From Cyclobacteriaceae bacterium (GTDB lineage: Bacteria; Bacteroidota; Bacteroidia; Cytophagales; Cyclobacteriaceae): a DNA stretch of 36,676 nucleotides. The notes under the pieces were generated by a model. That model worked only from the letters and a program-made list of their open reading frames with translations. It was not told the DNA's origin and did not search any database. Below are positions 23,554-36,666 of the stretch, piece after piece; the stretch's first letter is position 1; each line of letters begins with the position of its first letter. A program made the translations under genes and the position numbers. Location: positions 1 through 36,676 of the forward strand of contig JABFSO010000143.1 of NCBI GenBank assembly GCA_013140555.1, given 5' to 3'.

Positions 23554-25512
23554 TTAATTCACAATTTTTTCTTCGGCAAAATCGCCACGTAACGAACGGA
23601 AGCGCTTGCGCGCTTCTGCTGCATACACGCTGCCGGGAAACTTGTTGAGAAACTCACGGAAAATTTCTTGAGCTTTTACTTTATCGGCCAATTGGGTTTC
23701 ATAGATATCGCCTTGCAAAAAGAAGGCATCATCGGCATACACATCATCTGGAAACTGCGTCAAGATTTTTTCCAAAAAGGAAATGGACTCTTTAAATTTT
23801 CCCTGCTTCATGTTCAGGTTTGCCTGCAACCAAAAGTAGTCGTCCATTATTTCTCTATTCATTCGAGTAGGCGGAAGTTGCACCCAAATGTATTCGCCCT
23901 CGGTTTCCACCAAAGTGTTCACATCGATCAGACCATATAAAAATGCTTCGGCTTGTCTCATCAATACTTTTCCGTTTTCAAAATTGAGAAGCTGCTTTTG
24001 CGCTACATCCATTTTGTTTTGATAAATCAACAATTCGATGTGGGCAAATTGCCGTAAGGATAGTCCCGTAGTGTCGAAGGTGGTGTTCTCTTTAATGCGC
24101 ATACTCAAATCCATGGCATCGTTGGCGATTTCGCGAGTAGTCGCCTGTTTCAAAATATCCAAATGCTCTTGTGCCAATTTGAAATCTCCTTTGTAATACG
24201 AAAGCTTGGCGTTTCGCAATTTCGCATCATAGCCCAGTGGTGTTTCGCGCTGCGATTTTTCTACCTGCGAATAAAGCAGTGTTGCTTCCCAAGGTTCTTC
24301 TTTCAACAAATACACATCGCCCAACTCCATTTTCGCCTGGTTGCGGAGCATGAGTGATACTTTTGGGTTGGCTATTAATTTCGAAATGTCTTTTACAGCT
24401 GAGTCGAGTTCGTTTAGATAATATCCTTTCAGCAACGACTGGTTCAACCGCGCTTCGTGTGCATTCGAATTTTCCGGATAGCGCGAACAAAATTTGTCGT
24501 ATTCGGCAATCAGGTAGCGCACAGAATCTTTATTGACTGGAAATGATTTTTTCACTTTGGCTTCGCGTGTACGGATGAGTCCGAGCTGGGCCGGCAAATA
24601 ATTTTCGGTGTTGGCAAATTCTTTGATTACATACGAAAATGCTTTGTCGGCATTGGAGTAGTCTTTATTGTTCAGTGCGATTTGGGCGATTTCTAATGTT
24701 TTCGAATTTTCTTTTCGAAAGCGTTTATCGTAGGCGCGAGCTTGGATAAAGGCTCCGTAAAAATTTTTTTGCTGCAGATTCACCCATATAATAAGGTCGG
24801 CATAAATTTCTGACTGTTGGTATTGCTGTACTCGTTCCAGCAAAATCTGCTCAAGACTTTGCAGCTCTTCCGGTTTTGTAATCAGAAGCTGCATCAAATT
24901 TTTAATGTAGGCGCTATTCGCGGGTGTTTGCGTTACGTAGTCGAGGTACTCGTTTACCATTTCGGTGCGCTTTCCTTGAATTCGGTATAAGTTGGCGAGC
25001 TCCAGGGCAAAGAGAGCCGGACTGTTGGTAACATTTCGCGCCTGTTGTAAACTATAAACTGCATAGTCTACTAAATTTTTAGAGGCTAAGTAATCCGCGA
25101 TTATTTTCGCTTTATAGACATCCTCGATTTGAATTTTTATAATGCTTTTGAGGTACTTGTCCGCTTTGGCCAATTCGCCAGCTCGAACATACACTACGCC
25201 TAAATCGAGGCGGTAGGTAATTCGATCGTCTTTTTTAATAATTTTTTCCACATAATCTTCGGCTTGCTTAAACTGACTCATGTCGAGCATCAGGTTAAGA
25301 TAATTGTTGTGGATAACCGCTATGTTCTGAAAATCTTTGGCCAGTGTTTGAAAAGCCGCCAGTGCTTTGGGTTTTTCGCCTTTGCTTAAATATTCATTTG
25401 CGATTTGAATCTCTTGCTGATTTTGCGCAAGAAGTTGTACACAAGCGAAGACTAGTATTGTATTACAAATAAATTTTTTAAAAAATAATTGGTAGTAGTT
25501 AGTCGTGTTCAT
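23554..25512 (-). CDS. Tetratricopeptide-repeat secreted protein
   Basis: The 652-residue protein has an N-terminal signal (residues about 15-29, ending CVQLLAQ) and is otherwise a long alpha-solenoid of TPR-like units. Examples are ANEYLSKGEKPKALAAFQTL near the start, AELAKADKYLKSI, LYSQVEKSQRETPLGYDAKLRNAKL, and a C-terminal pair KESISFLEKILTQFPDD and AQEIFREFLNKFPGS. The C-terminal repeats resemble the outer-membrane-assembly lipoprotein (YbgF/BamD) type of TPR, but no lipobox is visible. It probably acts as an envelope protein-interaction scaffold. The ATG at 25512 lies directly beside a perfect DnaA box (25514-25522), so initiation factors could affect its transcription. Confidence 0.85.
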   Translation of the reverse strand: MNTTNYYQLFFKKFICNTILVFACVQLLAQNQQEIQIANEYLSKGEKPKALAAFQTLAKDFQNIAVIHNNYLNLMLDMSQFKQAEDYVEKIIKKDDRITYRLDLGVVYVRAGELAKADKYLKSIIKIQIEDVYKAKIIADYLASKNLVDYAVYSLQQARNVTNSPALFALELANLYRIQGKRTEMVNEYLDYVTQTPANSAYIKNLMQLLITKPEELQSLEQILLERVQQYQQSEIYADLIIWVNLQQKNFYGAFIQARAYDKRFRKENSKTLEIAQIALNNKDYSNADKAFSYVIKEFANTENYLPAQLGLIRTREAKVKKSFPVNKDSVRYLIAEYDKFCSRYPENSNAHEARLNQSLLKGYYLNELDSAVKDISKLIANPKVSLMLRNQAKMELGDVYLLKEEPWEATLLYSQVEKSQRETPLGYDAKLRNAKLSYYKGDFKLAQEHLDILKQATTREIANDAMDLSMRIKENTTFDTTGLSLRQFAHIELLIYQNKMDVAQKQLLNFENGKVLMRQAEAFLYGLIDVNTLVETEGEYIWVQLPPTRMNREIMDDYFWLQANLNMKQGKFKESISFLEKILTQFPDDVYADDAFFLQGDIYETQLADKVKAQEIFREFLNKFPGSVYAAEARKRFRSLRGDFAEEKIVN

Positions 25513-25513
25513 T

Positions 25514-25522
25514 TGTGGATAA
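25514..25522 (-). promoter_or_regulatory. DnaA box 1
   Basis: TGTGGATAA is a perfect minus-strand TTATCCACA. It lies one base upstream of the TPR gene's start codon, so bound DnaA could also block that gene. Confidence 0.8.
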
Positions 25523-25623
25523 CTCCTTTAAATCCTTCTGATGTATATAAATTATGGAATTCTTTGGATCGATATCTTGGCTTTCTTAGTCCTAAGTGGA
25601 TAAGGTAATCTTAATTTGTGAAT

Positions 25624-25632
25624 TGTGGATAA
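25624..25632 (-). promoter_or_regulatory. DnaA box 2
   Basis: TGTGGATAA is a perfect minus-strand TTATCCACA, 110 bases from box 1 and 58 bases from box 3. Confidence 0.8.
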
Positions 25633-25681
25633 CTTATTACACATGGATTAATGTGAATTTACTTTGTGGTTATCTTCATGT

Positions 25682-25690
25682 TTATCCACA
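25682..25690 (+). promoter_or_regulatory. DnaA box 3
   Basis: TTATCCACA is a perfect plus-strand box within the sequence TTTATCCACAATT. Confidence 0.8.
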
Positions 25691-25741
25691 ATTCTCTTGG
25701 CTTTGGTAATAGCTATATTCGAAATGTGTATAGCTTTCATT

Positions 25742-25750
25742 TTATCCACA
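25742..25750 (+). promoter_or_regulatory. DnaA box 4
   Basis: TTATCCACA is a perfect plus-strand box within TTTATCCACAAGT, 60 bases from box 3 in the same orientation. The 3' end of the lipoprotein gene begins 15 bases later. Confidence 0.8.
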
Positions 25751-25764
25751 AGTATTTATGCTTA

Positions 25765-27375
25765 TCAGAAAGTTATCACCAATGGTCCTACTTCCCAATT
25801 TGCTCTAATAGGTGTTATTGTTTTACCGTCAAAATTCTTGTAGGTAAATACACGTTCGGGTTCGATTCTTAGCAGATAGTTTCCGATGTCCCATCTTTGG
25901 TTGTTGTTGGTGTCAATCGTAATCCTGATTTTGTAATCGCCCGGTTCTAAATTTTTGAAAGTGTGTGTTTTTGGTTTGTTGAGTTTTAGTACGACTTTAT
26001 TACTGCGATCAATCAGCTCTATAAAGTAGTAAGGTTCTTTAGATTCTACTTTTATGGCTAATGAACCTACTTGTTCTGATTTGGGAATCCTGACTGGTTC
26101 GGTTTTAGTTCTTGATGAATCTTGTTCAATAGATACAAAGGCTCCTTTACCGTAATACAACATTGGTTTAACAGTCGAGATTTCGCCTTCTAGTTTTTTA
26201 GTTAATTGTAGTGTTAAATTTAGTGTATCCAATGTAATATCTTGATTACCAATTGGTTGGAAGTCTGTAGAATCAATTTGCACAAATACACTGTCGTAAT
26301 TGATGTGTGACAAGAGTTTGTTAAATCGGATAGATTGAGTGATGATCTTTTTATCAGAGTCGTAATTGAGTGAGTTGAAGGATACAGAAAATTTTTCTTT
26401 TGACATCTTTGAATTGGTGAACTTAAGATAGACGGTTGTGTCTTTACGAACTTCTAAGCTATCGGTAACTGTCACTTCTAGTTGAAGAGAATCTCTGGAG
26501 AACTCGTCTTTTAGATTTCGGAATACGACTTCGTCTTGCTTCGTGCCGAAGTAGTAGATGAAATCGTTTCTGAGGTAGGGGTTAATCTTGATGGATGTAA
26601 TTGCCTTATTTAGGCGCATAGTTGAAATTTTATCAGAAGATCGAAAGCTGGTGATCTTTAAGGGTCGGGCATCAACTTTTGCAAGTTCCACGTTTACGCT
26701 GTCCTTGCTTGGAATCTCAATGGTTTCTTTTTTAAATCCGAATCGTTCAGACTTACTTTCAACTAGGAGGTTCTTGTTCTTGTCATCGAAAGCGTAAATA
26801 AAATATTTTCCTGGTTTTAAGTTTTTGATAGAGAATTTACCTTTTTTATTCGCTTTGGTAAAATAGGTTGGGGTGTGTTTGAAGATGTTGAAAGTATCTG
26901 AACTGTAAAGAGCAACTGTAATCTTGTCCGGAATTTCTTCTTTAAAGATTTCGGATATTCTTCCTTGTATCTCTAATGAATCTATTGTTGACCCTGTGCT
27001 GAAAGCTAATCGTAAATTATTTGCCGGATTACTTTCTGTAATGTCTTGGATGGATTCTCTAAACGCGATACTGTAAGTAGTATTTTCTTTCCAACCTCCC
27101 TTCGTGCTTACAATGATCTTGTTTTTCTTCGCTGTGTATTTTATTTCTTTTCCGATGGATGGGCTTATTAGTACTTCTTCTTCCGGTGCTTTCAGTTTTA
27201 CATATTCATCGAACGTCAGTTCAATTGTTTTGCCTGTAAAATTCTTTTGATTGTTGGCCGGATTCGATGAAACCAATTCGGGTGGTTTCTTGTCTTGTGG
27301 CCCGCCAGCTGGTGATGTCTGATTGGCACAATGTGAAAAGACAATAAGAATGATGGCTGCCCAGAAGTACTTCAT
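25765..27375 (-). CDS. Ig-like (Big_5) domain lipoprotein
   Basis: The 536-residue protein is a lipoprotein with a short signal and a lipobox ending at Cys16 (IVFSHC). It begins with a proline/glycine-rich linker (SPAGGPQDKKPPELVSSNPANNQKNF). The first domain (about 30-130) is a Big_5 Ig-like fold: TIELTFDEYVKLKAPEEEV, ENTTYSIAFRESIQD. A prealbumin-like domain (about 135-225: KKGKFSIKNLKPGKYFIYAFDDKNKN) and further beta domains follow, with a second LEPGDYKIRITIDTNNNQRWD near the end. This is a common Bacteroidota surface lipoprotein type and its function is unknown. Its ATG overlaps the upstream methyltransferase stop (27372-27375). Its 3' end is next to oriC. Confidence 0.85.
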   Translation of the reverse strand: MKYFWAAIILIVFSHCANQTSPAGGPQDKKPPELVSSNPANNQKNFTGKTIELTFDEYVKLKAPEEEVLISPSIGKEIKYTAKKNKIIVSTKGGWKENTTYSIAFRESIQDITESNPANNLRLAFSTGSTIDSLEIQGRISEIFKEEIPDKITVALYSSDTFNIFKHTPTYFTKANKKGKFSIKNLKPGKYFIYAFDDKNKNLLVESKSERFGFKKETIEIPSKDSVNVELAKVDARPLKITSFRSSDKISTMRLNKAITSIKINPYLRNDFIYYFGTKQDEVVFRNLKDEFSRDSLQLEVTVTDSLEVRKDTTVYLKFTNSKMSKEKFSVSFNSLNYDSDKKIITQSIRFNKLLSHINYDSVFVQIDSTDFQPIGNQDITLDTLNLTLQLTKKLEGEISTVKPMLYYGKGAFVSIEQDSSRTKTEPVRIPKSEQVGSLAIKVESKEPYYFIELIDRSNKVVLKLNKPKTHTFKNLEPGDYKIRITIDTNNNQRWDIGNYLLRIEPERVFTYKNFDGKTITPIRANWEVGPLVITF

Positions 27376-28259
27376 TTCTTAATTATATAAATAAGACTTG
27401 AGTGATTTATTTCTTTCAATGCTTTCCGGTTAGAGGTTAGCCCCTGAAGAGTAGCCTTCATCATATTCATCAAACTTGACTGTTGTGGGTTTCTATACTT
27501 TTCGCTTAGAAGGCTTACATAGTATGCATCCAGTTTCATCGGAATCACTTCTTTTATTTTCATTCCATGTGTGTTCATCAAATTCTGCATGGTGGTTTTT
27601 GAAAAGTGCCACAAATGTCTTGGCACATCGTAAGCTGCCCAGTGCGACTGGTACTCTTTTGCATCCGGTGATTCATGATTAGGTACTGCTATAATAATTG
27701 TGCCATTCTCCTTTAGAACTGATTTTATTTTTTCTACCGTTTCATGAAGTTCATGTACGTGTTCAAGTACATGCCACATTGTAATCACATCGAAGGTTTG
27801 ATTAATACTTTGAAGATCTGTGTAGATTTTTTGCTGAATTTTTTGTGATGCTTTTTCACGCGCTGTCTCTGTCGGCTCCACTCCGGTGACATTCCAGCCT
27901 GCCGTTTTCATGTGGTAAATGAACTCACCGGTACCACAGCCAACATCCAACAGTTCTCCTTTGATGTGTCGTTCCGATATCAATTCCTCTTTCCACCTGA
28001 GTGTAAAATTTCTTGCCATCAGGTATACCCGATCCAAAATTCCTTTTCCACCATCGGTATGTGAAATGTAACTATCCGATTGGTAATATTTTCCAATGGC
28101 ATTTACCGGTGGTCTCGGGTTGGTAAACACAAATTGACAACTCGCACACTTTTGAACCTGAAAAGTTTCTTGCGTTGTCGTATAGTCAGTGGCCACTAAT
28201 ACATCTAATAACTCAGACGCTTGGCAGAGCGGACAGTGTGCTAGATTTTCCTGATTCAT
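27372..28259 (-). CDS. SAM-dependent methyltransferase with N-terminal zinc ribbon
   Basis: The 295-residue protein has an N-terminal four-cysteine zinc ribbon (Cys9, Cys12, Cys38, Cys41) and then FVFTNPRPP. A class I methyltransferase domain (about 85-230) follows, with motif I LLDVGCGTGEF, an acidic GVEPTETAREKA, and DVITMWHVLEHVHELHE. This two-part layout matches the methyltransferases of the UbiE/COQ5-like group often found with sugar or lipid biosynthesis. The substrate is unknown. It overlaps the mnmG stop by one base and the lipoprotein start by four, so all three are one transcription unit. Confidence 0.85.
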   Translation of the reverse strand: MNQENLAHCPLCQASELLDVLVATDYTTTQETFQVQKCASCQFVFTNPRPPVNAIGKYYQSDSYISHTDGGKGILDRVYLMARNFTLRWKEELISERHIKGELLDVGCGTGEFIYHMKTAGWNVTGVEPTETAREKASQKIQQKIYTDLQSINQTFDVITMWHVLEHVHELHETVEKIKSVLKENGTIIIAVPNHESPDAKEYQSHWAAYDVPRHLWHFSKTTMQNLMNTHGMKIKEVIPMKLDAYYVSLLSEKYRNPQQSSLMNMMKATLQGLTSNRKALKEINHSSLIYIIKK

Positions 28260-30121
28260 TATTTTCCCATGTAGACAGTGAGTACCGATACGTCAGCCGG
28301 AGATACTCCACTGATTCGTGATAGTTGACCGATGGTTTCCGGTTTTATTTTCTTCAGCTTTTCTCGAGCTTCTGATGATAGCGCTTTCACGCGATCATAG
28401 TCAAAGTCGGGACGGATTTTGTAGTCTTCCAGTCCCTCGATTTTAGTAGCCAGTTTTTGTTCACGGTCAATGTAGCTTACATACTTGGTGATGATCTCCA
28501 CTTGTTGAAGAATTTCTTCTTCGTACTTTTCGAGCACCTTCCCTATTTCTGGATCAATCTGTTTCAATTCGTTCATGCCGATATGAGGTCGCTTCAAAAG
28601 ATTTTCAGCGGGCATCTTTTCGCTGATGGTGGCGGTCTCTAATTCGGTGAGCGAATTGTTCACCACTTCTGGTTCTACTCGAAGAGCTTTTAGTTCTTTG
28701 GTGAGCTGTGTGATGGCTTCTTTTTTCTTAAGAAGATTTTGAAACCGTTCGTCAGTTGCCAGCCCAAGCTTGTGTCCTATTTCAGTCAGGCGCAGGTCTG
28801 CATTATCCTGACGTAACAATATTCTGTATTCGGCACGGGAGGTAAACATTCGATAAGGTTCTTGAGTGCCTTTGTTTACCAGATCATCGATGAGAACACC
28901 TATATAGGCTTCAGATCTTTTTAGAATCAACTGCTCTTTTTCATGCACTTTGTTGTGCGCATTGATTCCAGCCATGAGTCCTTGACATGCTGCCTCTTCA
29001 TACCCCGTAGTGCCATTAATTTGACCTGCAAAATACAGATTGTCAATAAGTTGAGTCTCCAAGCTCATCTTTAGTTGTGTGGGCGGGAAGTAGTCGTATT
29101 CAATAGCGTAACCCGGCCTGAACATCTTGGCATTTTCAAAGCCGGGTATCTTAGTAATGGCGCTGTACTGAATGTCTTCTGGCAAAGAAGTTGAAAATCC
29201 ATTGACATAGATCTCGATAGTCTTCCATCCTTCCGGCTCAACAAATATCTGATGCCTATCTCTTTCAGCGAACCTATTGATCTTATCTTCTATGGAGGGA
29301 CAGTAACGAGGACCTAGTCCTTTGATTCTTCCCTGAAACATAGGTGATCGGTCGAAGCCTTTTTCCAGTTCTTTATGCACGGCTTCGTTGGTGTAGGTGA
29401 TCCAGCAGCTTCGTTGCTGTGCCAACGGTTTGGTATCGGTATAAGAAAACTTCCCAGGGTTCTCATCCCCTTTCTGTTCTTCCATCGCGCTATAGTTCAG
29501 CGATCTTCCGTCAATTCGAGGTGGCGTTCCGGTTTTCATTCTACCGGCCTCAAAACCTAACTCTATTAGTTGTTCAGTAATTCCAGTAGCGGCTTTCTCT
29601 GCTGTGCGTCCTCCTCCAAAGTTCTTTTCTCCGATGTGGATCTTTCCATTCAGGAAGGTTCCATTGGTTAATACTACGGCCTTTGCTTTTACTTCAATCC
29701 CCAGTGCTGTTCTTACCCCTACTACTCGTTTATCTTTAACAAGTAGCCCACTTACCATCTCTTGCCAGAAATCTACATTTGGCATGGATTCAAGTGCTAG
29801 TCTCCATTCTTCGGCAAACAACATGCGGTCGTTTTGAGTGCGCGGACTCCACATAGCAGGCCCTTTAGATAGATTCAGCATGCGGAACTGAATCATTGAC
29901 TTATCAGAGACAATTCCAGAGTATCCACCTAAGGCATCGATCTCTCGTACAATTTGCCCTTTGGCCACACCGCCCATGGCTGGGTTGCAAGACATCTGGG
30001 CAATAGTGTTCATATTCATAGTCACCAAAAGAACTTTGGATCCCATGTTTGCCGCAGCGGCTGCAGCCTCACATCCGGCATGGCCGGCTCCTACCACAAT
30101 TACATCGTATTCCTGAAACAT
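28259..30121 (-). CDS. mnmG: tRNA uridine-5-carboxymethylaminomethyl modification enzyme MnmG (GidA)
   Basis: MnmG, with MnmE, builds the cmnm5 group on the wobble uridine U34 of several tRNAs. The 620-residue protein has the FAD-binding VIVVGAGHAGCEAAAAAA at residues 8-25, then MSCNPAMGGVAKGQIVREIDALGG, the NAD-binding middle region, GTPPRIDGRSLNYSAMEEQ, YCPSIEDKINRF, and the helical C-terminal domain ending LSRISGVSPADVSVLTVYMGK. Length and all family blocks are complete. GidA is a classical neighbour of oriC; here the DnaA-box region is 2.5 kb downstream. Two parS-like palindromes lie directly upstream, within 77 bases of the start codon. It forms a unit with the methyltransferase and lipoprotein. 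Confidence 0.98.
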   Translation of the reverse strand: MFQEYDVIVVGAGHAGCEAAAAAANMGSKVLLVTMNMNTIAQMSCNPAMGGVAKGQIVREIDALGGYSGIVSDKSMIQFRMLNLSKGPAMWSPRTQNDRMLFAEEWRLALESMPNVDFWQEMVSGLLVKDKRVVGVRTALGIEVKAKAVVLTNGTFLNGKIHIGEKNFGGGRTAEKAATGITEQLIELGFEAGRMKTGTPPRIDGRSLNYSAMEEQKGDENPGKFSYTDTKPLAQQRSCWITYTNEAVHKELEKGFDRSPMFQGRIKGLGPRYCPSIEDKINRFAERDRHQIFVEPEGWKTIEIYVNGFSTSLPEDIQYSAITKIPGFENAKMFRPGYAIEYDYFPPTQLKMSLETQLIDNLYFAGQINGTTGYEEAACQGLMAGINAHNKVHEKEQLILKRSEAYIGVLIDDLVNKGTQEPYRMFTSRAEYRILLRQDNADLRLTEIGHKLGLATDERFQNLLKKKEAITQLTKELKALRVEPEVVNNSLTELETATISEKMPAENLLKRPHIGMNELKQIDPEIGKVLEKYEEEILQQVEIITKYVSYIDREQKLATKIEGLEDYKIRPDFDYDRVKALSSEAREKLKKIKPETIGQLSRISGVSPADVSVLTVYMGK

Positions 30122-30132
30122 CTTAGTTGGTT

Positions 30133-30148
30133 AGTTCCACGTGAAACA
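30133..30148. promoter_or_regulatory. parS-like ParB-binding site 1
   Basis: AGTTCCACGTGAAACA differs from the parS consensus TGTTTCACGTGAAACA only at two positions, one of them an end base. The core CACGTG is intact. The site lies 12 bases upstream of the mnmG start, so a bound ParB could affect mnmG transcription. Confidence 0.8.
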
Positions 30149-30167
30149 TTTAACACGTTTTTAGCGG

Positions 30168-30181
30168 ATTTGATTTCAAAT
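30168..30181. repeat. Palindrome between the two parS-like sites
   Basis: ATTTGATTTCAAAT is a near-perfect palindrome: six paired bases on each side of a central TT. It is spaced between the two parS-like sites and may be a regulator site for mnmG or chance. No binding protein is identified. Confidence 0.35.
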
Positions 30182-30182
30182 A

Positions 30183-30198
30183 GGTTCCACGTGGAACT
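30183..30198. promoter_or_regulatory. parS-like ParB-binding site 2
   Basis: The core GTTCCACGTGGAAC (30184-30197) is a perfect 14-base palindrome and fits the pattern GTTNCACGTGNAAC. It lies 50 bases from site 1 in the same gap. Its last two bases overlap the stop codon of ybeY. Confidence 0.8.
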
Positions 30199-30619
30199 AT
30201 TTGCGCAAAGATAGGGAAGCTTCCTCTTTTTTGCGCATGAGGGCTTTATCGGCAGGTTTCTTGTCTTTGTATCCAATCAGGTGCAAAACGCCATGTATCA
30301 TTACGCGGTCAAGTTCATCCTGAAATGGCACTTTAAATTTCTCCGCGTTTTCCTTCACGCGATCGATGCTGATATAAATTTCCCCTTCCAATTGCTTTGC
30401 CCCTTCGGAGTAGTCGAAAGTGATGATATCAGTAAGGGTATTGTGATTGAGGTATTGCTGATTGAGTTGCAGCAAGTAAGCATCCGAGCAAAAGATGTAG
30501 GAAACATCCAATACCTCGCGCTTTTCTTTTTGAGCGATGATTTTAATCCAATTGCTGGTCTTACGAGGTTTGGCGAGTGTGAATGAAATGTCTTCTATAA
30601 AAAACTGGATAGCCGCCAT
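30197..30619 (-). CDS. ybeY: rRNA maturation endoribonuclease YbeY
   Basis: YbeY is a zinc-dependent single-strand RNase that takes part in 16S rRNA 3'-end processing and ribosome quality control. The 140-residue protein is full length. The metal motif HGVLHLIGYKD contains His109 and His113. The third ligand position is Asp119 instead of the His found in E. coli (HGxLHLxGYDH); this replacement is common in Bacteroidota. TLTDIITFDY in the middle and a C-terminal MRKKEE match the family. Its ATG overlaps the upstream ATPase stop by one base (TAATG), and mnmG follows 75 bases downstream. Confidence 0.93.
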   Translation of the reverse strand: MAAIQFFIEDISFTLAKPRKTSNWIKIIAQKEKREVLDVSYIFCSDAYLLQLNQQYLNHNTLTDIITFDYSEGAKQLEGEIYISIDRVKENAEKFKVPFQDELDRVMIHGVLHLIGYKDKKPADKALMRKKEEASLSLRK

Positions 30620-31020
30620 TAGTTCATATAGAAGCTAAGCTCCACCACTTTGCCCTTATCGGAGAAAGCCACCTCATCAGCAAGATGTTTCATGAGGAAG
30701 ATGCCACGGCCACCAGGCTTTTCTAAATTTTCAGGAGCGGTAGGGTCTGGAAGGTTTTCATATTCAAAACCATTGCCTTCATCTTCCACTTTGAATTTGA
30801 TCAAGTTTTCGTCAAAGGAAAGTGAAAGGGCTACGTTCTTGGCAGAGTTATTTTGATTGCCGTGCTTGATGGCATTGTTCACCGCTTCGGTCACAGCAAT
30901 CATGATGTTGCCGTAGATATCGTCATTGAGATGGTATTTCTCCTTAGCATTATCAATAAAGCTTTCAATCATCCGGATGTTCTCGGTTAAGGAAGGAATC
31001 TCAATACTAATCTTCTTCAT
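30619..31020 (-). CDS. RsbW/SpoIIAB-like ATP-binding anti-sigma or switch kinase
   Basis: The 133-residue protein is a single GHKL/HATPase_c domain without a histidine-containing phosphotransfer domain, as in RsbW and SpoIIAB. Visible motifs are EAVNNAIKHGN (N box) and VEDEGNGFEYENLP, then KPGGRGIFLMKHLADEV (G box and lid). RsbW proteins phosphorylate an antagonist and bind a sigma factor in Firmicutes. In Bacteroidota the partner is not identified and no STAS antagonist or PP2C phosphatase gene is next to it. It starts the ybeY unit, with a one-base overlap with ybeY and a 66-base gap from the DUF4175 gene upstream. Confidence 0.88.
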   Translation of the reverse strand: MKKISIEIPSLTENIRMIESFIDNAKEKYHLNDDIYGNIMIAVTEAVNNAIKHGNQNNSAKNVALSLSFDENLIKFKVEDEGNGFEYENLPDPTAPENLEKPGGRGIFLMKHLADEVAFSDKGKVVELSFYMN

Positions 31021-31086
31021 GCGCTAATAGTTCATTTTTTGGTGATCACTCGAAATGGACAAAGCCATACCAAATGCAATTCTGTT

Positions 31087-34000
31087 TTACTCTTTAGTCC
31101 CTATTCGTTTAAAATATTCGTTCACCTCCTTTTTGTAATAGGGAAACAACCGAGGAGGTAGTGTTTTCAACAATTCTACTTCTTTTTCTTTTAATCTTAA
31201 ATACTCTTCAAAAGCGCGTGGCATTTCCTGCGTATAATCTTTGGCTGTCTCTCCTTTTCGCTCCTGATCCTGATTTTGCTCGCGCATCGATTTCTCCGCT
31301 TCGAGCAGTCGGGTGATGATTTCGTTTTGCCTGCGGATGGTTTGCTCGGTGATCTGCTTGTTAACCAAATCCATTTCAGTTTGTTCCATTTTGCCTGGTA
31401 AATCTCCGCCCGGAACCTTGCCCCCTTCTTGCTTCAACTTCTCCTGCATTTCCTGCAAGGCCCTACGAATGCGTTCTTGCTCCGCAGCCATACGAGCAAA
31501 CTCTTCTGACAGTTGTCTGCCCGACTTGCCGCCTTTTTTCATTTCCTGCATTTGCTGATTCAATTGTTGTTGCATTTGGCCAAGATTGGGCATCTTTTGT
31601 TTTCCTTTCTTTTTTCCTTTGCCGGGCTTAGCATTCGCCATCATGTCCATCATCATATCAAAATGATCGTTCAGCATCAAAGCGAGGTTGTTGATACTTG
31701 TCATTGAGAATTGCATCTCCGAACTGGCGTTGCCTTTCTTGCGCTCCTTCACGTTCAACGCAGCTTTGTCCAGGTGATCGTTAAGCTCACCCACTTCTTT
31801 TGTTACAATAGAACCTAAGAAAGCGTCCTTCTTAGAAAGAGATAACAGGCTGTCTTCCAGCACTTTAGCGTCATCTTTTACCTTTAACTGCTGCTGGCCG
31901 AGGGTTACGTAACGGGGGTCGGTCTGTTGTACCTGGTTAAATTCTTTCATCAGATTCTCTTGATCGTAGGACAACTTGATCAAGCCATGGAGAATCTGGC
32001 GCAGGCTTTCCAGGTTGGCCATATCCATTTCCATCTCCATAGAGTTTTGCATGCCCTCCAGTTTTTGCTGCATTTTCTTCATCTGCTCCACCGCCTTCTT
32101 TTGTTGCTCCGAAGCTTTTTTGGGTTTGCCATTCTTCAACTCTTCTTTGCTGTTCTCTTGCGACTGCTCCAACTCCTGCATTTGTTGCTCGCTGGGTGTG
32201 TCTTCTGTTTTGTCCAATTCCTCACCCATCTTCTCCAACTCCTTCACGGTTTCTTTGAACTGCTCATTTTCTTTTTTCAACTGCTCTTGCTCTTCGGCCA
32301 ACTTTTCAGCGCTTGGCTTTTCGTTATTTTGATTTTCATCATTTTTCTGACCGTCATTCTCTTTTCCGTTCTTGTCTTTAGACTTGTCTGGATTGTTTTC
32401 GTTTTGCTTTCCGTCCTTGTTTTCTTTTCCGTCTTTCGAATCACTGTTCTCTTTAGGTTCGGGTTTTTCTCCGGCCAGCTCTTGCGTTTTTTCCAATAGA
32501 TTTTCCTGCTTCTCTTTTTGCTCTTTTATTTCAGAAATAGCTTGCTCCAGTTTGTAGTCGTATTGCAGTTGTTTGAAAAGTTCCAGCGTGCGCTCCAGCT
32601 CTTTTTCCATATTGATTTCTTTGCGATCCATTTTGTCGAGCAACTTTTGCATCTGCGATGGATCGGCATTTTCTTTCAATAGCTTTTCTAATTCCTGAAA
32701 AAGTTTTTTGGTTTCTTCGTCCAGCAACTCGTTCATAATTTTTTGTATCTGCTCCGATTTCTCGCGGATGCGCTCGCTCTCTTCCGTAAAGCTTTCTTTC
32801 TTTTGCTCGAGCAACTTGTTTTCTTTTTGCAGTTGCTGAATGGCCTGATCTAGTTTTTGTTTTTGCTGAACAAGCTCCTCCAACATTTTCTTGTCCTGCC
32901 AATCCAAACTTTGTTTTCCTTTCAGTCGCTCTTGGGCTTCGTCAATGGATTGCTTGAGGTCTTTCGCCTTTTGAATGCTTTGATCTATTTTGTTTTCAGC
33001 ATTTCGCTGCGATTGCGCAATGTCTGCTTTCAACTCTTCATTGCCCGGAAGGGCAAACACGTAGCCGGCCGAGCGTGTGGATTTGCGACCGTTCACTCCG
33101 TCATTGTCCCATACCTGTAAGTAGTAATTTACTTTGTCGCCCGGCTGCAATCGGAGCGAATCGATCTTCCATTCGTAAAAGAAGTTTTGTTGATTGCGAT
33201 TGGAGTTGAGCGGAATGGTAGTGGTTTTCAGTGGAGCTTCTTTATTTCCTTTGATGATCTGGTACTGAAGTTTTAATTCGGTCACACCATAATCATCCGT
33301 AAGTGATCCTCCCAAAAGAATATTTTTAAAGAGAATGGAATCTTGCAGGTTGTCCACAACAATTTGTGGAAACTGATCTTTAACGACAGCAATAGAGTAA
33401 CTGATTTGCTCCTTGTTTTTGCTCTTATCGTTTTCCAGCAGAATCGAGTATTGATCAGGATCTTTGATGTTTTTACTGAAGTTGAAAAGTTGGTCGTCCA
33501 CCATGGGCATCTCGTTTTCACCCAAGCCTGAGCTAAACGTAATTTTAGCACGAGTCGCATTGGCGGTGCCCACCTGCCAGGTTACTTTGGTTCCTTCCGG
33601 AATTTCCAGATTGCCCACATTGGTCATGCGCTCAGCTTTCCTGCCTAGATAAGAAGGGAAGGCGAGTTGCACATTGATTTTGGTTACTTCGGGACGGTTG
33701 ATGATTTCAATTTTGTACCGATCAGAGTAAAACCCAGCCGCCTCTATTTGCAGATCAACTTCGTTTTGCAATTTTTCAAACAGGTATGAAAACTGACCCG
33801 TTCCGAGTGACTCCATCTTCCAGCGTTGGTTGCCAATCACGATATAGGCGCTTTCGGGTATTGAGCTACCTTTCAGCGAAAGCTGCAATGTAAAATCTTC
33901 ATTGAAAAATGCCGACAAAGAAGGATTCCCTATCTGAAACGTGAACGGAGCCTGAGGCGAGAACTCTTGATTGAACTGAATGATACGCTTGGTGCTTTGT

Positions 34001-34521
34001 GTGAAAATCGATCGGTCGATGACCATCAACAAGAGAATAAAAGCGATGGCTGCGCCAAAATATTTTAAGTATTTGATGTTGTCGCGGAAGTTGATGGCCT
34101 CTTCGAATGAAATATTTTTAAAGGCATTGGATTTTTGTTGAATGCCGGCTTGCGCCAATGAACCGGAAGACGATGCGGCTAATTGAAGAACATTAATTAA
34201 GCGATCGCCAATGCCAGGAAAATGAAGACCAATCATGCGTGCGCTTTGCTCTTCGCCCAATCCGCGTTTGTAAATCCACCATGCTAACGGTGCCCGTAGA
34301 AAAAGAAAAATGCAAACGGCCACTAAAGCAAAGAATGTGGTGAAGAGCAAAAAGCGCACCCCTTTGCCCAACCATAGATTATATTCAATCAAACTAACCA
34401 GTGCCAGGTAAGCCAGCACCAATGTGATGGTGAGCATGGCTCCTTTGATAAAAAGATTGAGATAATACTTACGCCTGAAGGCTGTTACTTTCTCATGAAT
34501 ATCTTGAATCCCCTCTGTCAT
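31087..34521 (-). CDS. DUF4175-family coiled-coil membrane protein
   Basis: The 1144-residue protein is DUF4175-like. Two membrane helices lie near the N-terminus (about 22-45 and 52-75) and a third near 152-167 (YFGAAIAFILLLMVI). A beta-rich extracytoplasmic part follows (about 190-490), with LQLAFPSYLGRK and YYLQVWDNDGVNGRKS. A very long Gln/Glu/Lys-rich helical region (about 500-1090) contains coiled coils and a charged low-complexity linker (about 690-760, KPEPKENSDSKDGKENKDGK). It ends LPPRLFPYYKKEVNEYFKRIG. The family is found widely in Bacteroidota and its biochemical role is unestablished. The long run of Gln/Lys codons causes antisense Leu-rich frames that are not genes. It lies 38 bases from the NTF2-like gene's stop. 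Confidence 0.9.
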   Translation of the reverse strand: MTEGIQDIHEKVTAFRRKYYLNLFIKGAMLTITLVLAYLALVSLIEYNLWLGKGVRFLLFTTFFALVAVCIFLFLRAPLAWWIYKRGLGEEQSARMIGLHFPGIGDRLINVLQLAASSSGSLAQAGIQQKSNAFKNISFEEAINFRDNIKYLKYFGAAIAFILLLMVIDRSIFTQSTKRIIQFNQEFSPQAPFTFQIGNPSLSAFFNEDFTLQLSLKGSSIPESAYIVIGNQRWKMESLGTGQFSYLFEKLQNEVDLQIEAAGFYSDRYKIEIINRPEVTKINVQLAFPSYLGRKAERMTNVGNLEIPEGTKVTWQVGTANATRAKITFSSGLGENEMPMVDDQLFNFSKNIKDPDQYSILLENDKSKNKEQISYSIAVVKDQFPQIVVDNLQDSILFKNILLGGSLTDDYGVTELKLQYQIIKGNKEAPLKTTTIPLNSNRNQQNFFYEWKIDSLRLQPGDKVNYYLQVWDNDGVNGRKSTRSAGYVFALPGNEELKADIAQSQRNAENKIDQSIQKAKDLKQSIDEAQERLKGKQSLDWQDKKMLEELVQQKQKLDQAIQQLQKENKLLEQKKESFTEESERIREKSEQIQKIMNELLDEETKKLFQELEKLLKENADPSQMQKLLDKMDRKEINMEKELERTLELFKQLQYDYKLEQAISEIKEQKEKQENLLEKTQELAGEKPEPKENSDSKDGKENKDGKQNENNPDKSKDKNGKENDGQKNDENQNNEKPSAEKLAEEQEQLKKENEQFKETVKELEKMGEELDKTEDTPSEQQMQELEQSQENSKEELKNGKPKKASEQQKKAVEQMKKMQQKLEGMQNSMEMEMDMANLESLRQILHGLIKLSYDQENLMKEFNQVQQTDPRYVTLGQQQLKVKDDAKVLEDSLLSLSKKDAFLGSIVTKEVGELNDHLDKAALNVKERKKGNASSEMQFSMTSINNLALMLNDHFDMMMDMMANAKPGKGKKKGKQKMPNLGQMQQQLNQQMQEMKKGGKSGRQLSEEFARMAAEQERIRRALQEMQEKLKQEGGKVPGGDLPGKMEQTEMDLVNKQITEQTIRRQNEIITRLLEAEKSMREQNQDQERKGETAKDYTQEMPRAFEEYLRLKEKEVELLKTLPPRLFPYYKKEVNEYFKRIGTKE

Positions 34522-34559
34522 GCCTATGGTAGCAACGGTTTATCCACGAATATAGTTAG

Positions 34560-34973
34560 TTAATCCCATACGTATTTCCAGCTCTTATCCGACTGGCGCT
34601 TCCACACTGTGTGAAAAATCCCGGTTTTAGTAGTGATTTCACCGGAGCTATCGGACAAAGTCATTTTGTATTTCCCATACGTGAAAGCCATATCCCCAGC
34701 CTCACTCACAAAAACAGAGTCCGGTGCCCATTGCAGGCGCGCATTGTCCAAACCAGTCTTTTTGTAAAAATCTAAAATCGCTTCACGGCCATGGATTAGT
34801 TCCCCACGGTTAATGGTGGCATTCTGATCGGCAAACTCGTAAAATGCCTGAGCGATGCTTTTCTCTGCCGCCCTTTTTTCGAAAGCCGCTTCTGCCGCGA
34901 CAATTTCTTGTTGGATGTTTTGCTCCTTGGGCTGACAAGCAACTAAAATGCAAATGAGTAAAAGGTATTTCAT
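34560..34973 (-). CDS. NTF2-like (SnoaL/DUF4440) lipoprotein
   Basis: The 137-residue protein begins with a lipoprotein signal (MKYLLLICILVAC, lipid-modified Cys13) and continues with an NTF2-like cone. It has an early helix IVAAEAAFEKRAAEKSIAQAF, then NATINRGELIHGREAILDFYKK, and a beta part GDMAFTYGKYKMTL and FHTVWKRQSDKSWKYVWD. The layout matches DUF4440/SnoaL. Members range from small ligand-binding proteins to ketosteroid-isomerase-like enzymes; the role here is unknown. It follows the 88-residue membrane protein by 22 bases on the same strand. Confidence 0.85.
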   Translation of the reverse strand: MKYLLLICILVACQPKEQNIQQEIVAAEAAFEKRAAEKSIAQAFYEFADQNATINRGELIHGREAILDFYKKTGLDNARLQWAPDSVFVSEAGDMAFTYGKYKMTLSDSSGEITTKTGIFHTVWKRQSDKSWKYVWD

Positions 34974-34995
34974 TGGAGTTAAAAAAAATCAGTCG

Positions 34996-35262
34996 TTAAA
35001 CTTGAGCGCCAATCCAACAAGAAGGAAATCCAATTAGTACAATCAGCAGAGCTGATAATAAAAAGCTTCGGCCATTTTCTTTAGACTTATTTATAAATGA
35101 AGCGATAGCAACAATAAAATTTAACCCAGAGTGTATGGATATGCAAAAAGCTAATCCAATTAATATACCCAAGCCTTTTTCTGATCCACTGCTAAAGGCT
35201 ATTATAAGAATGGTATATACGAGCAATATGATCAGATTGACACCCACTATTTTATTCTTCAT
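34996..35262 (-). CDS. Small hydrophobic membrane protein of 88 residues
   Basis: I recognise no family. The sequence shows three probable transmembrane helices: VGVNLIILLVYTILIIAF (about 5-22), GLGILIGLAFCISIHSGLNFIVAIASF (about 30-56) and FLLSALLIVLIGFPSCWIG (about 67-85), with a short basic loop KSKENGR before the last. It starts three bases after the radical SAM stop, so the two are almost certainly co-transcribed; the NTF2-like lipoprotein follows after 22 bases. It could be an accessory to the radical SAM enzyme, but this is only context. Confidence 0.7.
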   Translation of the reverse strand: MKNKIVGVNLIILLVYTILIIAFSSGSEKGLGILIGLAFCISIHSGLNFIVAIASFINKSKENGRSFLLSALLIVLIGFPSCWIGAQV

Positions 35263-35265
35263 AAT

Positions 35266-36666
35266 CTAGGATTTAGTTTCCTCTATCAATATTTCATTTA
35301 ATCTTTTCGCCTTGTTATCGCGATAAAACAAATTCATCGTTTCAAACGGTATGATATTTAAATCTTTGTTTACGATGTGCACACATGATTTTTTTACGGC
35401 TCTGACATCAAAATTATGAGCATCCATAAAATGCATAATAATAATGCGAAATAGATTATCGTAACCCAATTGTGGAGCATCAATAGTTGGCAAGCAGCAC
35501 AAAATCGATTTTAATTCTTCAGAGGCTCTTTCAACCGAATTGCCCGTACTGAACATCTGAATCATGTGACTTTTCAATCGCTCATCCTGTTCGTAGACAA
35601 TTGTATTTTTGGAGTTGTTCAATAAGTCATCCGGATTGATATAACGTGTAAGCGGAAAGACCTGATCATCGATCTTTAATGCGTAGCCCATAACCAAAGC
35701 ATCCGGATTGCAAGGCACCGGCAAAAGATCATCTTCATTGAAAATAGCACTTTGCTTTAGTATCTCTTTGCGCACCTCAGTGAGAGTGATCCGATTCAAT
35801 TGCGGATCGTGATTCTCTAATCGGCCTGCTACTTGAGTCGGCTGAAAAGTAATTCCCCGAACGCATTTTTGTTGTAAGGCAAACTCGATTAACGATCCTA
35901 TTTCTCCATCATTAAGTCCCTTTTGCAGGGTGACTACCAGCGTGGTTGACAAATTAAATTTATTCAGATTTTCAATGGCCTTGCGCCTTACCTCTACTAA
36001 GTTTTCGCCCCGTAGTTTTTCTAACACGTGAGGCTGCAGTGAGTCGAATTGTAAATACACCTCAAAGTCTGGCGTGTAACTCGAAAGCTTTTGAACAAAG
36101 GCCTCGTCTTTTGCAATGCGTATACCATTCGTGTTAAGCATTAAATGCCGAATGGGCTTTTTCTTAGCAATGTCCAATATTTTAAAAAAATCAGGATGAA
36201 CGGTAGGTTCACCACCACTGATTTGTACCACATCCGGCTGACCCTCATTTTCAACAATTGCATCCAGCATTGCTTCGATCTCTTCCAGCGTACGATGTCT
36301 TCCAAAGTGAGGCGAAGACTCTGCATAGCAAGTCGGGCAAGTGAGATTGCACCGGTCGGTAACTTCTATTACTGTAAGGCATGAGTGTTGTTCATGATCC
36401 ACACACAAGCCGCAATCATACGGGCAACCGTAGTGGGTAGCCTTATTGAATTTTAATGGCATTTCACTGGGCTTCATGTATTGGCGACACTTCTTGTAAT
36501 ATTCAATATCGTCAGCAATTAGAACTTTTTCCCGACCATGCTCTTGACAGTTTTTGAGCATGAAAACTTTATCATCCTGAAACACAATTTTAGCATCAAC
36601 TCTTTTCAAACAAACCGAACAGATGCTGAGGGTAAAATCATAATACGTATAAGGTCTTTCAGGCAT
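35266..36666 (-). CDS. Radical SAM protein related to archaeal tetraether lipid synthase (Tes/MJ0619-like)
   Basis: The 466-residue enzyme has a radical SAM core with CNLTCPTC (Cys106, Cys110, Cys113), SGGEPTVHPDF (SAM amine-binding GGE), and a C-terminal half with IIMHFMDAHNFDVRAVKKSCVH and IIPFETMNLFYRD. Extra cysteines come before the core: a zinc/rubredoxin-like set CSVC...C (16, 19, 40) and CPYDCGLC...C (81, 85, 88, 96), which could hold auxiliary Fe-S clusters. This matches the MJ0619/Tes family, in which the archaeal enzyme joins phytanyl chains into tetraether lipids. In a Bacteroidota host the substrate cannot be tetraether as such, so the true reaction is unknown. It is complete; the window ends 10 bases upstream. 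Confidence 0.85.
   Translation of the reverse strand: MPERPYTYYDFTLSICSVCLKRVDAKIVFQDDKVFMLKNCQEHGREKVLIADDIEYYKKCRQYMKPSEMPLKFNKATHYGCPYDCGLCVDHEQHSCLTVIEVTDRCNLTCPTCYAESSPHFGRHRTLEEIEAMLDAIVENEGQPDVVQISGGEPTVHPDFFKILDIAKKKPIRHLMLNTNGIRIAKDEAFVQKLSSYTPDFEVYLQFDSLQPHVLEKLRGENLVEVRRKAIENLNKFNLSTTLVVTLQKGLNDGEIGSLIEFALQQKCVRGITFQPTQVAGRLENHDPQLNRITLTEVRKEILKQSAIFNEDDLLPVPCNPDALVMGYALKIDDQVFPLTRYINPDDLLNNSKNTIVYEQDERLKSHMIQMFSTGNSVERASEELKSILCCLPTIDAPQLGYDNLFRIIIMHFMDAHNFDVRAVKKSCVHIVNKDLNIIPFETMNLFYRDNKAKRLNEILIEETKS

Follow-up and report, generated by a model that had tools for sequence, protein, structure and literature searches.

A probable chromosomal replication origin at the start of a TPR-protein gene in a Cyclobacteriaceae bacterium

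Gene context and DnaA boxes

The window, i.e. the whole 36,676-nt stretch of DNA analysed here, contains a short gap (25513-25764) between two minus-strand genes, one encoding a TPR protein and the other a Big_5 (Ig-like)/DUF2141 protein, with gidA/mnmG close by (Table 1). The main ORFs to the right of the gap (25765-36666) all lie on the minus strand.

Table 1. Genes, DnaA boxes and proposed elements around the gap (window coordinates)
Feature	Position	Strand	Remark
TPR protein gene	23554..25512	-	start overlaps the putative origin element
Fifth exact box	25308..25316	-	TPR coding sequence; encodes a kept Ile-His stretch
Proposed DNA unwinding element	25452..25505	-	first TPR codons; proposed from stability and AT content
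Overlapping box pair, best-kept element	25506..25522	-	exact 25514-25522 and weak 25506-25514, one-base overlap
DnaA box, one mismatch	25595..25603	-	from mismatch scan
Exact DnaA box	25624..25632	-	inside block ~25618-25667, 82-94% identity in three closest relatives
Exact DnaA box	25682..25690	+	exact TTATCCACA match
Exact DnaA box	25742..25750	+	adjoins Big_5 stop codon; box or near-box here in many relatives
Big_5 (Ig-like)/DUF2141 protein gene	25765..27375	-	bounds gap on other side
gidA/mnmG	28259..30121	-	syntenic neighbour

The gap region holds four exact copies of the DnaA box TTATCCACA, at 25514-25522 and 25624-25632 on the minus strand and at 25682-25690 and 25742-25750 on the plus strand, just as an earlier sequence-only reading of this DNA had placed and oriented them (minus, minus, plus, plus). 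That reading described the outer pair as facing inwards; read 5' to 3' as TTATCCACA, however, the left pair points left and the right pair right, which makes the layout diverge outwards. It also held that the window has no other perfect copy, but a fifth lies at 25308-25316 (minus strand) within the TPR ORF; because the letters of this fifth box vary synonymously among relatives, we dropped it as a conserved part of the origin and regard it as probably incidental. As for the three degenerate copies reported earlier, their number depends on the cut-off: the interval 25513-25764 has one box with one mismatch (25595-25603) and four with two mismatches (at 25542, 25665, 25670 and 25725).

Against the five exact boxes of the window, 100 dinucleotide shuffles averaged 0.36, the richest having two and none reaching five; as the excess also recurs in relatives (below), we rejected a chance cluster, the probability of which is negligible. 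Clustering of DnaA boxes well above chance, one of the marks of an oriC, is thus present. The organism's own assembly (4.78 Mb, 498 contigs, 94% complete) contains 55 exact copies of TTATCCACA, five of them in the window; apart from these, the two nearest copies on any one contig are ~2.2 kb apart; the exact-match scan of this assembly, which the earlier reading had proposed as a check, accordingly found no second exact-box cluster.

The same reading named an equally dense cluster beside dnaA as an observation that would count against it. The dnaA gene lies on a different contig of the assembly, and that contig carries no exact TTATCCACA; in a complete relative, CP058703.1, dnaA (1.218 Mb) lies 1.36 Mb from the corresponding gap, and we therefore rejected an origin beside dnaA. 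The DnaA ORF of the organism ends with a GGRDHSTV stretch, which we take to be the domain IV signature for TTATCCACA.

Conservation among relatives and chromosomal position

A pattern-based, non-exhaustive scan yielded 63 loci in other genomes where the coding sequence for a TPR-protein relative begins at the gap. The kept gene order is ybeY, gidA, methyltransferase, Big_5 protein, gap, TPR protein, with gidA present in 54 of the 63 loci and the Big_5 gene in 58; gidA is missing from nine loci, eight of which are cut by a contig edge, the ninth (L064) being a remote relative. The suggestion that gidA/mnmG is an origin neighbour agrees with this kept synteny and with its distance of ~2.5 kb from the boxes.

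We tested 56 gaps, i.e. that of the window and those of 55 relatives, leaving out three loci with gaps longer than 500 bp (L038, L047 and L051) and five without a Big_5 match. Together they contain 56 exact boxes, where dinucleotide shuffles predict 0.36, as well as 145 boxes with one mismatch; at least one exact box occurs in 30 of the 56 gaps, and p<0.05 is reached in 49, the seven others including that of CP058703.1 (L059; one exact box, p 0.17). Exact boxes occur at a density of 3.41 per kb in the gaps vs. 0.030 per kb elsewhere in these loci.

Cumulative GC skew inside the window shows no turn at the gap, and the chromosomal position was examined in complete relatives. From CP058703.1 (G001; 4.26 Mb in one contig, with 61% TPR identity) we took 80 stretches of 20 kb. 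The raw cumulative skew of this chromosome is lowest in the stretch centred on 2.513 Mb and highest at 0.436 Mb, and origins within 10% of the best raw fit span 2.46-2.67 Mb; in a contiguous 180-kb view the raw skew is lowest at 2.544 Mb, 31 kb from the gap, and the raw minima as a whole lie 31-62 kb off it. When gene-strand and replication effects were separated at third codon positions (GC3), the fit placed the origin at 2.57-2.61 Mb (5% band 2.46-2.61 Mb), with the corrected minimum in the very stretch that holds the gap and the maximum at 0.489 Mb; the exact box of the gap lies at 2,574,567, and the point half a chromosome away is 0.443 Mb. G043, a complete relative of 4.72 Mb, was sampled as 40 stretches. 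Its gap at 3.365 Mb falls outside the 10% band of the raw fit (fit 3.02-3.12 Mb; band 2.37-3.24 Mb) but inside the 5% band of the corrected fit (fit 2.90-3.01 Mb; band 2.56-3.72 Mb). In G114 (20 stretches sampled) the skew is too weak to place an origin. The skew evidence is good in one genome (CP058703.1) and weak in two (G043 and G114); the skew minimum that the earlier reading proposed to look for was found at the gap in CP058703.1 by the corrected fit, while in G043 the outcome depends on the correction.

Taken with the conserved boxes of the gap, the unlinked dnaA and the GGRDHSTV-bearing DnaA, the skew of CP058703.1 gives good support to the earlier identification of the locus: judged from sequence comparison, the gap is very probably the chromosomal replication origin (oriC).

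Three side observations concern these loci. A TAnnTTyG-like stretch at ~25598-25610 (minus strand), which recurs there in many aligned gaps and which we take to resemble the Bacteroidota -7 promoter element, is a candidate promoter of the TPR gene inside the origin. Compared with the three closest relatives, the Big_5 protein is only 73-77% and the methyltransferase 75-83% identical (25765-28259), whereas the flanking gidA and TPR products are 97-98% and 94-96% identical, which suggests fast change or exchange of the two genes beside the origin. CP058703.1 also has seven further weak PF00308 matches with near-equal scores, in ORFs of ~194-263 aa scattered over the chromosome; presumably these are insertion-sequence ATPase copies (IstB-like).

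The box pair and AT-rich stretch at the TPR start

The best-kept element of the aligned gaps is found at the start of the TPR gene and not between boxes 1 and 2: it consists of TTATCCACA, a weaker box (AAATGcACA) that overlaps it at an 8-bp offset, and then an AT-rich stretch. The weak box (25506-25514) has four mismatches in the window and three in its commonest form, and the TPR start codon (25510-25512, minus strand) sits within it. Directly beyond the pair, and inside the TPR ORF, DNA stability over 50 bp reaches its lowest value in the window (25452-25501). The earlier reading had drawn attention to the DNA between boxes 1 and 2, which is indeed AT-rich, but the less stable DNA at 25452-25501 led us to reject it as the opening site; when non-overlapping stretches of the window are ranked from the least stable upwards, the segments 25519-25568 and 25611-25660 come 11th and 14th. 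The interval 25513-25764 assigned to the origin in that reading is likewise too narrow, since it omits the likely unwinding element and the best-kept element runs into the TPR ORF. An unstable AT-rich element beside DnaA boxes, as expected of an oriC, is thus present.

We split the loci by TPR identity into a genus-level group (at least 56%; 37 loci including the window, without L035 and L057, which lack the gene start because of a contig edge) and 23 more distant loci (without L040 and L064). In the group the start ATG occupies the same place in 27/37 loci; 36/37 (all but L012) have an in-frame ATG between -30 and +25 nt, and L004 has an additional in-frame ATG slightly upstream. The 60 nt past the element contain no in-frame stop in 37/37 group loci, of which L012 and L058 match the element poorly and L013 was positioned manually (its automatic placement was off and gave two stops). 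By contrast, in-frame stops occur in all 23 distant loci, among which L063 was placed by hand (its automatic placement gave no stop). The element is well matched in 16 of the 23, mostly as TTATCCACG-TATCCACA followed by cTAATAAttaATAATAatTTtaat, and poorly in seven. At 15-45 nt beyond the boxes, AT fractions of 0.95 and 0.91 were measured over the 37 group loci, compared with 0.95 and 0.97 over the 16 distant ones. Since the frame is open throughout the group and interrupted throughout the distant set, the unwinding element of the group appears to double as code for a putative signal peptide, which is how we read the TPR N-terminus. The gap has a median length of 265 bp in the 37 group loci vs. 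354 bp in 15 distant loci, a difference that a merger of gene start and element would be expected to produce.

The kind of substitution near the gene start points in the same direction. Around the TPR start, positions -17 to +10 do not differ between the window and its three closest relatives (L002, L003 and L004), vs. 63-71% identity between the window and these relatives at positions -55 to -17. At codons 1-25, 4/25 differ synonymously in at least one of the three comparisons vs. 213/375 of later codons (p 9e-5), whereas amino-acid changes are commoner in codons 1-25 (6/25 vs. 25/375, p 0.008). Nucleotide identity is hardly higher in the first codons (0.89-0.92) than in later stretches (0.81-0.92), and the signal therefore resides in the kind of change and not in its amount. 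The scarcity of synonymous changes supports a role of these letters in the origin, short of proof, because translation can also limit synonymous change near gene starts. Across the group, codons for Ile, Leu, Tyr and Asn abound among the first 22 that follow the element, and ATA makes up 75% of the Ile codons there vs. 23% later, in a count that took in L013 with its wrong automatic placement.

A published rule for the basal unwinding system of Bacillus subtilis asks for at least three consecutive DnaA-trios within 16 bp (PMC8287927). We counted trio runs within 8 bp of the box pair and compared them with shuffled AT-rich DNA: NTN runs of at least three occur in 22/37 group and 9/16 distant loci (shuffle p 0.006 and 0.97, respectively), and NAN runs in 28/37 and 14/16 (p 0.0002 and 0.015). 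Such runs are common and only partly exceed those of shuffled AT-rich DNA; our case for an unwinding element consequently draws on position, AT content, stability and conservation.

Proposed mode of initiation, alternatives and known origins

We consider it likely that the oriC extends over ~25450-25760 and that, throughout the group, its box pair and unwinding element overlap the TPR start and ~20 codons of the gene. The reading builds on computed features—boxes, conservation, synteny, skew in one complete relative, the extreme of AT content and stability, the contrast in reading frame, and the few synonymous changes—from which we infer DnaA binding, the site of melting, the direction of the oligomer, helicase loading, the signal-peptide role and any coupling to TPR expression. 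DnaA would bind the high-affinity boxes across the gap (25742, 25682, 25624 and 25514); a DnaA oligomer may then extend from the overlapping boxes (25522-25506) onto the AT-rich DNA at ~25505-25450 and open it, the upstream boxes helping. The helicase would be loaded at the opened stretch and forks would leave both ways, the left fork running co-directionally with the TPR gene and the rightward fork meeting the minus-strand ORFs of 25765-36666 head-on. One stretch of DNA would thus serve the genus-level group as both origin and signal-peptide code. That this protein-coding state of the unwinding module is common to the group and arose by merger of a gene start with a formerly non-coding element is an evolutionary reading to which we give only a slight preference.

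It is improbable, in our estimate, that the opening site of the oriC instead lies within the intergenic gap, the AT-rich TPR start being merely a signal peptide with AT-rich codons. Signal peptides are hydrophobic anyway, the two gap segments mentioned above also rank among the 15 least stable, and the trio runs, which exceed shuffled DNA only in part, are compatible with such an arrangement; against it, the least stable stretch of all is in the TPR start, distant relatives keep an AT-rich stretch after the same box pair in non-coding DNA, and TPR codons 2-24 are 75% AT vs. at most 68% in 23 other picked genes of the window, several of which begin like signal peptides. Another alternative, rather unlikely, takes the AATGcACA half as translation-start context and leaves only the upstream TTATCCACA as a DnaA site: the start ATG is exactly there in most group loci, and the match to TTATCCACA is weak. 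Yet box-like letters often stay where no in-frame ATG occupies this place (e.g. AATCCACA, TTTACACA, ATTACACA and AATTCACA), and most well-matched distant loci read TATCCACA or TATTCACA at this place in non-coding DNA.

The boxes could also form a DnaA-binding cluster other than an origin, such as a promoter under DnaA control or, like datA of Escherichia coli, a site that titrates DnaA. The imprecise skew of G043 would accommodate this explanation, but the skew transition at the gap of CP058703.1, the conserved synteny and unwinding element, and the want of another exact-box cluster in the assembly make it very improbable.

An oriC with perfect boxes near gidA is in itself ordinary. Like the oriC of E. 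coli, the origin proposed here has TTATCCACA boxes near gidA/mnmG and is unlinked from dnaA; its layout differs, and the unwinding element of E. coli is intergenic. What appears unusual, from the aligned loci, is that throughout the group the beginning of a protein gene coincides with a DnaA box and the unwinding element. Origin letters that are also protein code are known from phage lambda, whose replication origin lies inside the O gene, the gene of its own initiator; here, in contrast, the origin is of the chromosomal DnaA type and the TPR gene has no known link to replication. Among publications judged by title and the start of the abstract, with most subscription journals and the DoriC database outside the scope, we recognised no such overlap of origin and gene start, a silence that is weak evidence of novelty.

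DnaA binding, polymerisation and opening at the box pair are proposed by analogy with B. subtilis (PMC6669920, PMC8287927) and Helicobacter pylori (PMC8235120). The basal unwinding system (BUS) of the B. subtilis oriC comprises DnaA boxes 6/7 and DnaA-trios (PMC6669920, PMC8287927); as there, an adjacent or overlapping box pair is found directly beside the proposed unwinding DNA, with further boxes at a distance. Unlike the BUS, the origin proposed for the window is not beside dnaA, its unwinding DNA is protein-coding in the group, and its trio array is imperfect (CTA-A-CTA-CTA) and lacks statistical confirmation. The H. pylori oriC2 has overlapping boxes (ts1/ts2), a GC-rich spacer and a DnaA-trio (PMC8235120), and the element described here resembles it in its fused or overlapping boxes, short spacer, and CTA-type repeats followed by AT-rich DNA; H. 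pylori, however, belongs to another phylum, and its origin is two-part, with no gene-start overlap noted in the part of the text available (PMC8235120).

If the proposed overlap is real, DnaA occupancy and origin opening would compete with, or couple to, transcription and translation of the TPR gene, and interference between origin opening and adjacent-gene expression becomes testable. Selection on origin DNA seems, moreover, to have shaped a protein N-terminus, as reflected in its Ile, Leu, Tyr and Asn residues and ATA codons. Our work also provides a predicted oriC and its comparative footprint for a group of Cytophagales known mostly from metagenomes, and the Big_5-gap-TPR arrangement may serve as a synteny marker for the origin in fragmented genomes of this group.

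The arrangement, with exact boxes in the gap, reaches as far as G074 (9.0 Mb, single contig), a member of another family of the order, in which the element is non-coding. We rejected the TPR gap as an order-wide origin marker because the exact-box pairs of three other genomes lie away from the TPR homologue (~1.2 Mb in G105, ~0.24 Mb in G114, and ~0.7 Mb, across the record start, in G098); in G043, G044 and G079 no exact-box pair of that spacing was found, and neither the pattern nor its place is therefore universal. Far from its TPR homologue, G105, which represents another family, has twelve exact DnaA boxes within ~690 bp (L215:1871-2577; G105:C1:2058870-2059576), a very dense candidate origin at another place.
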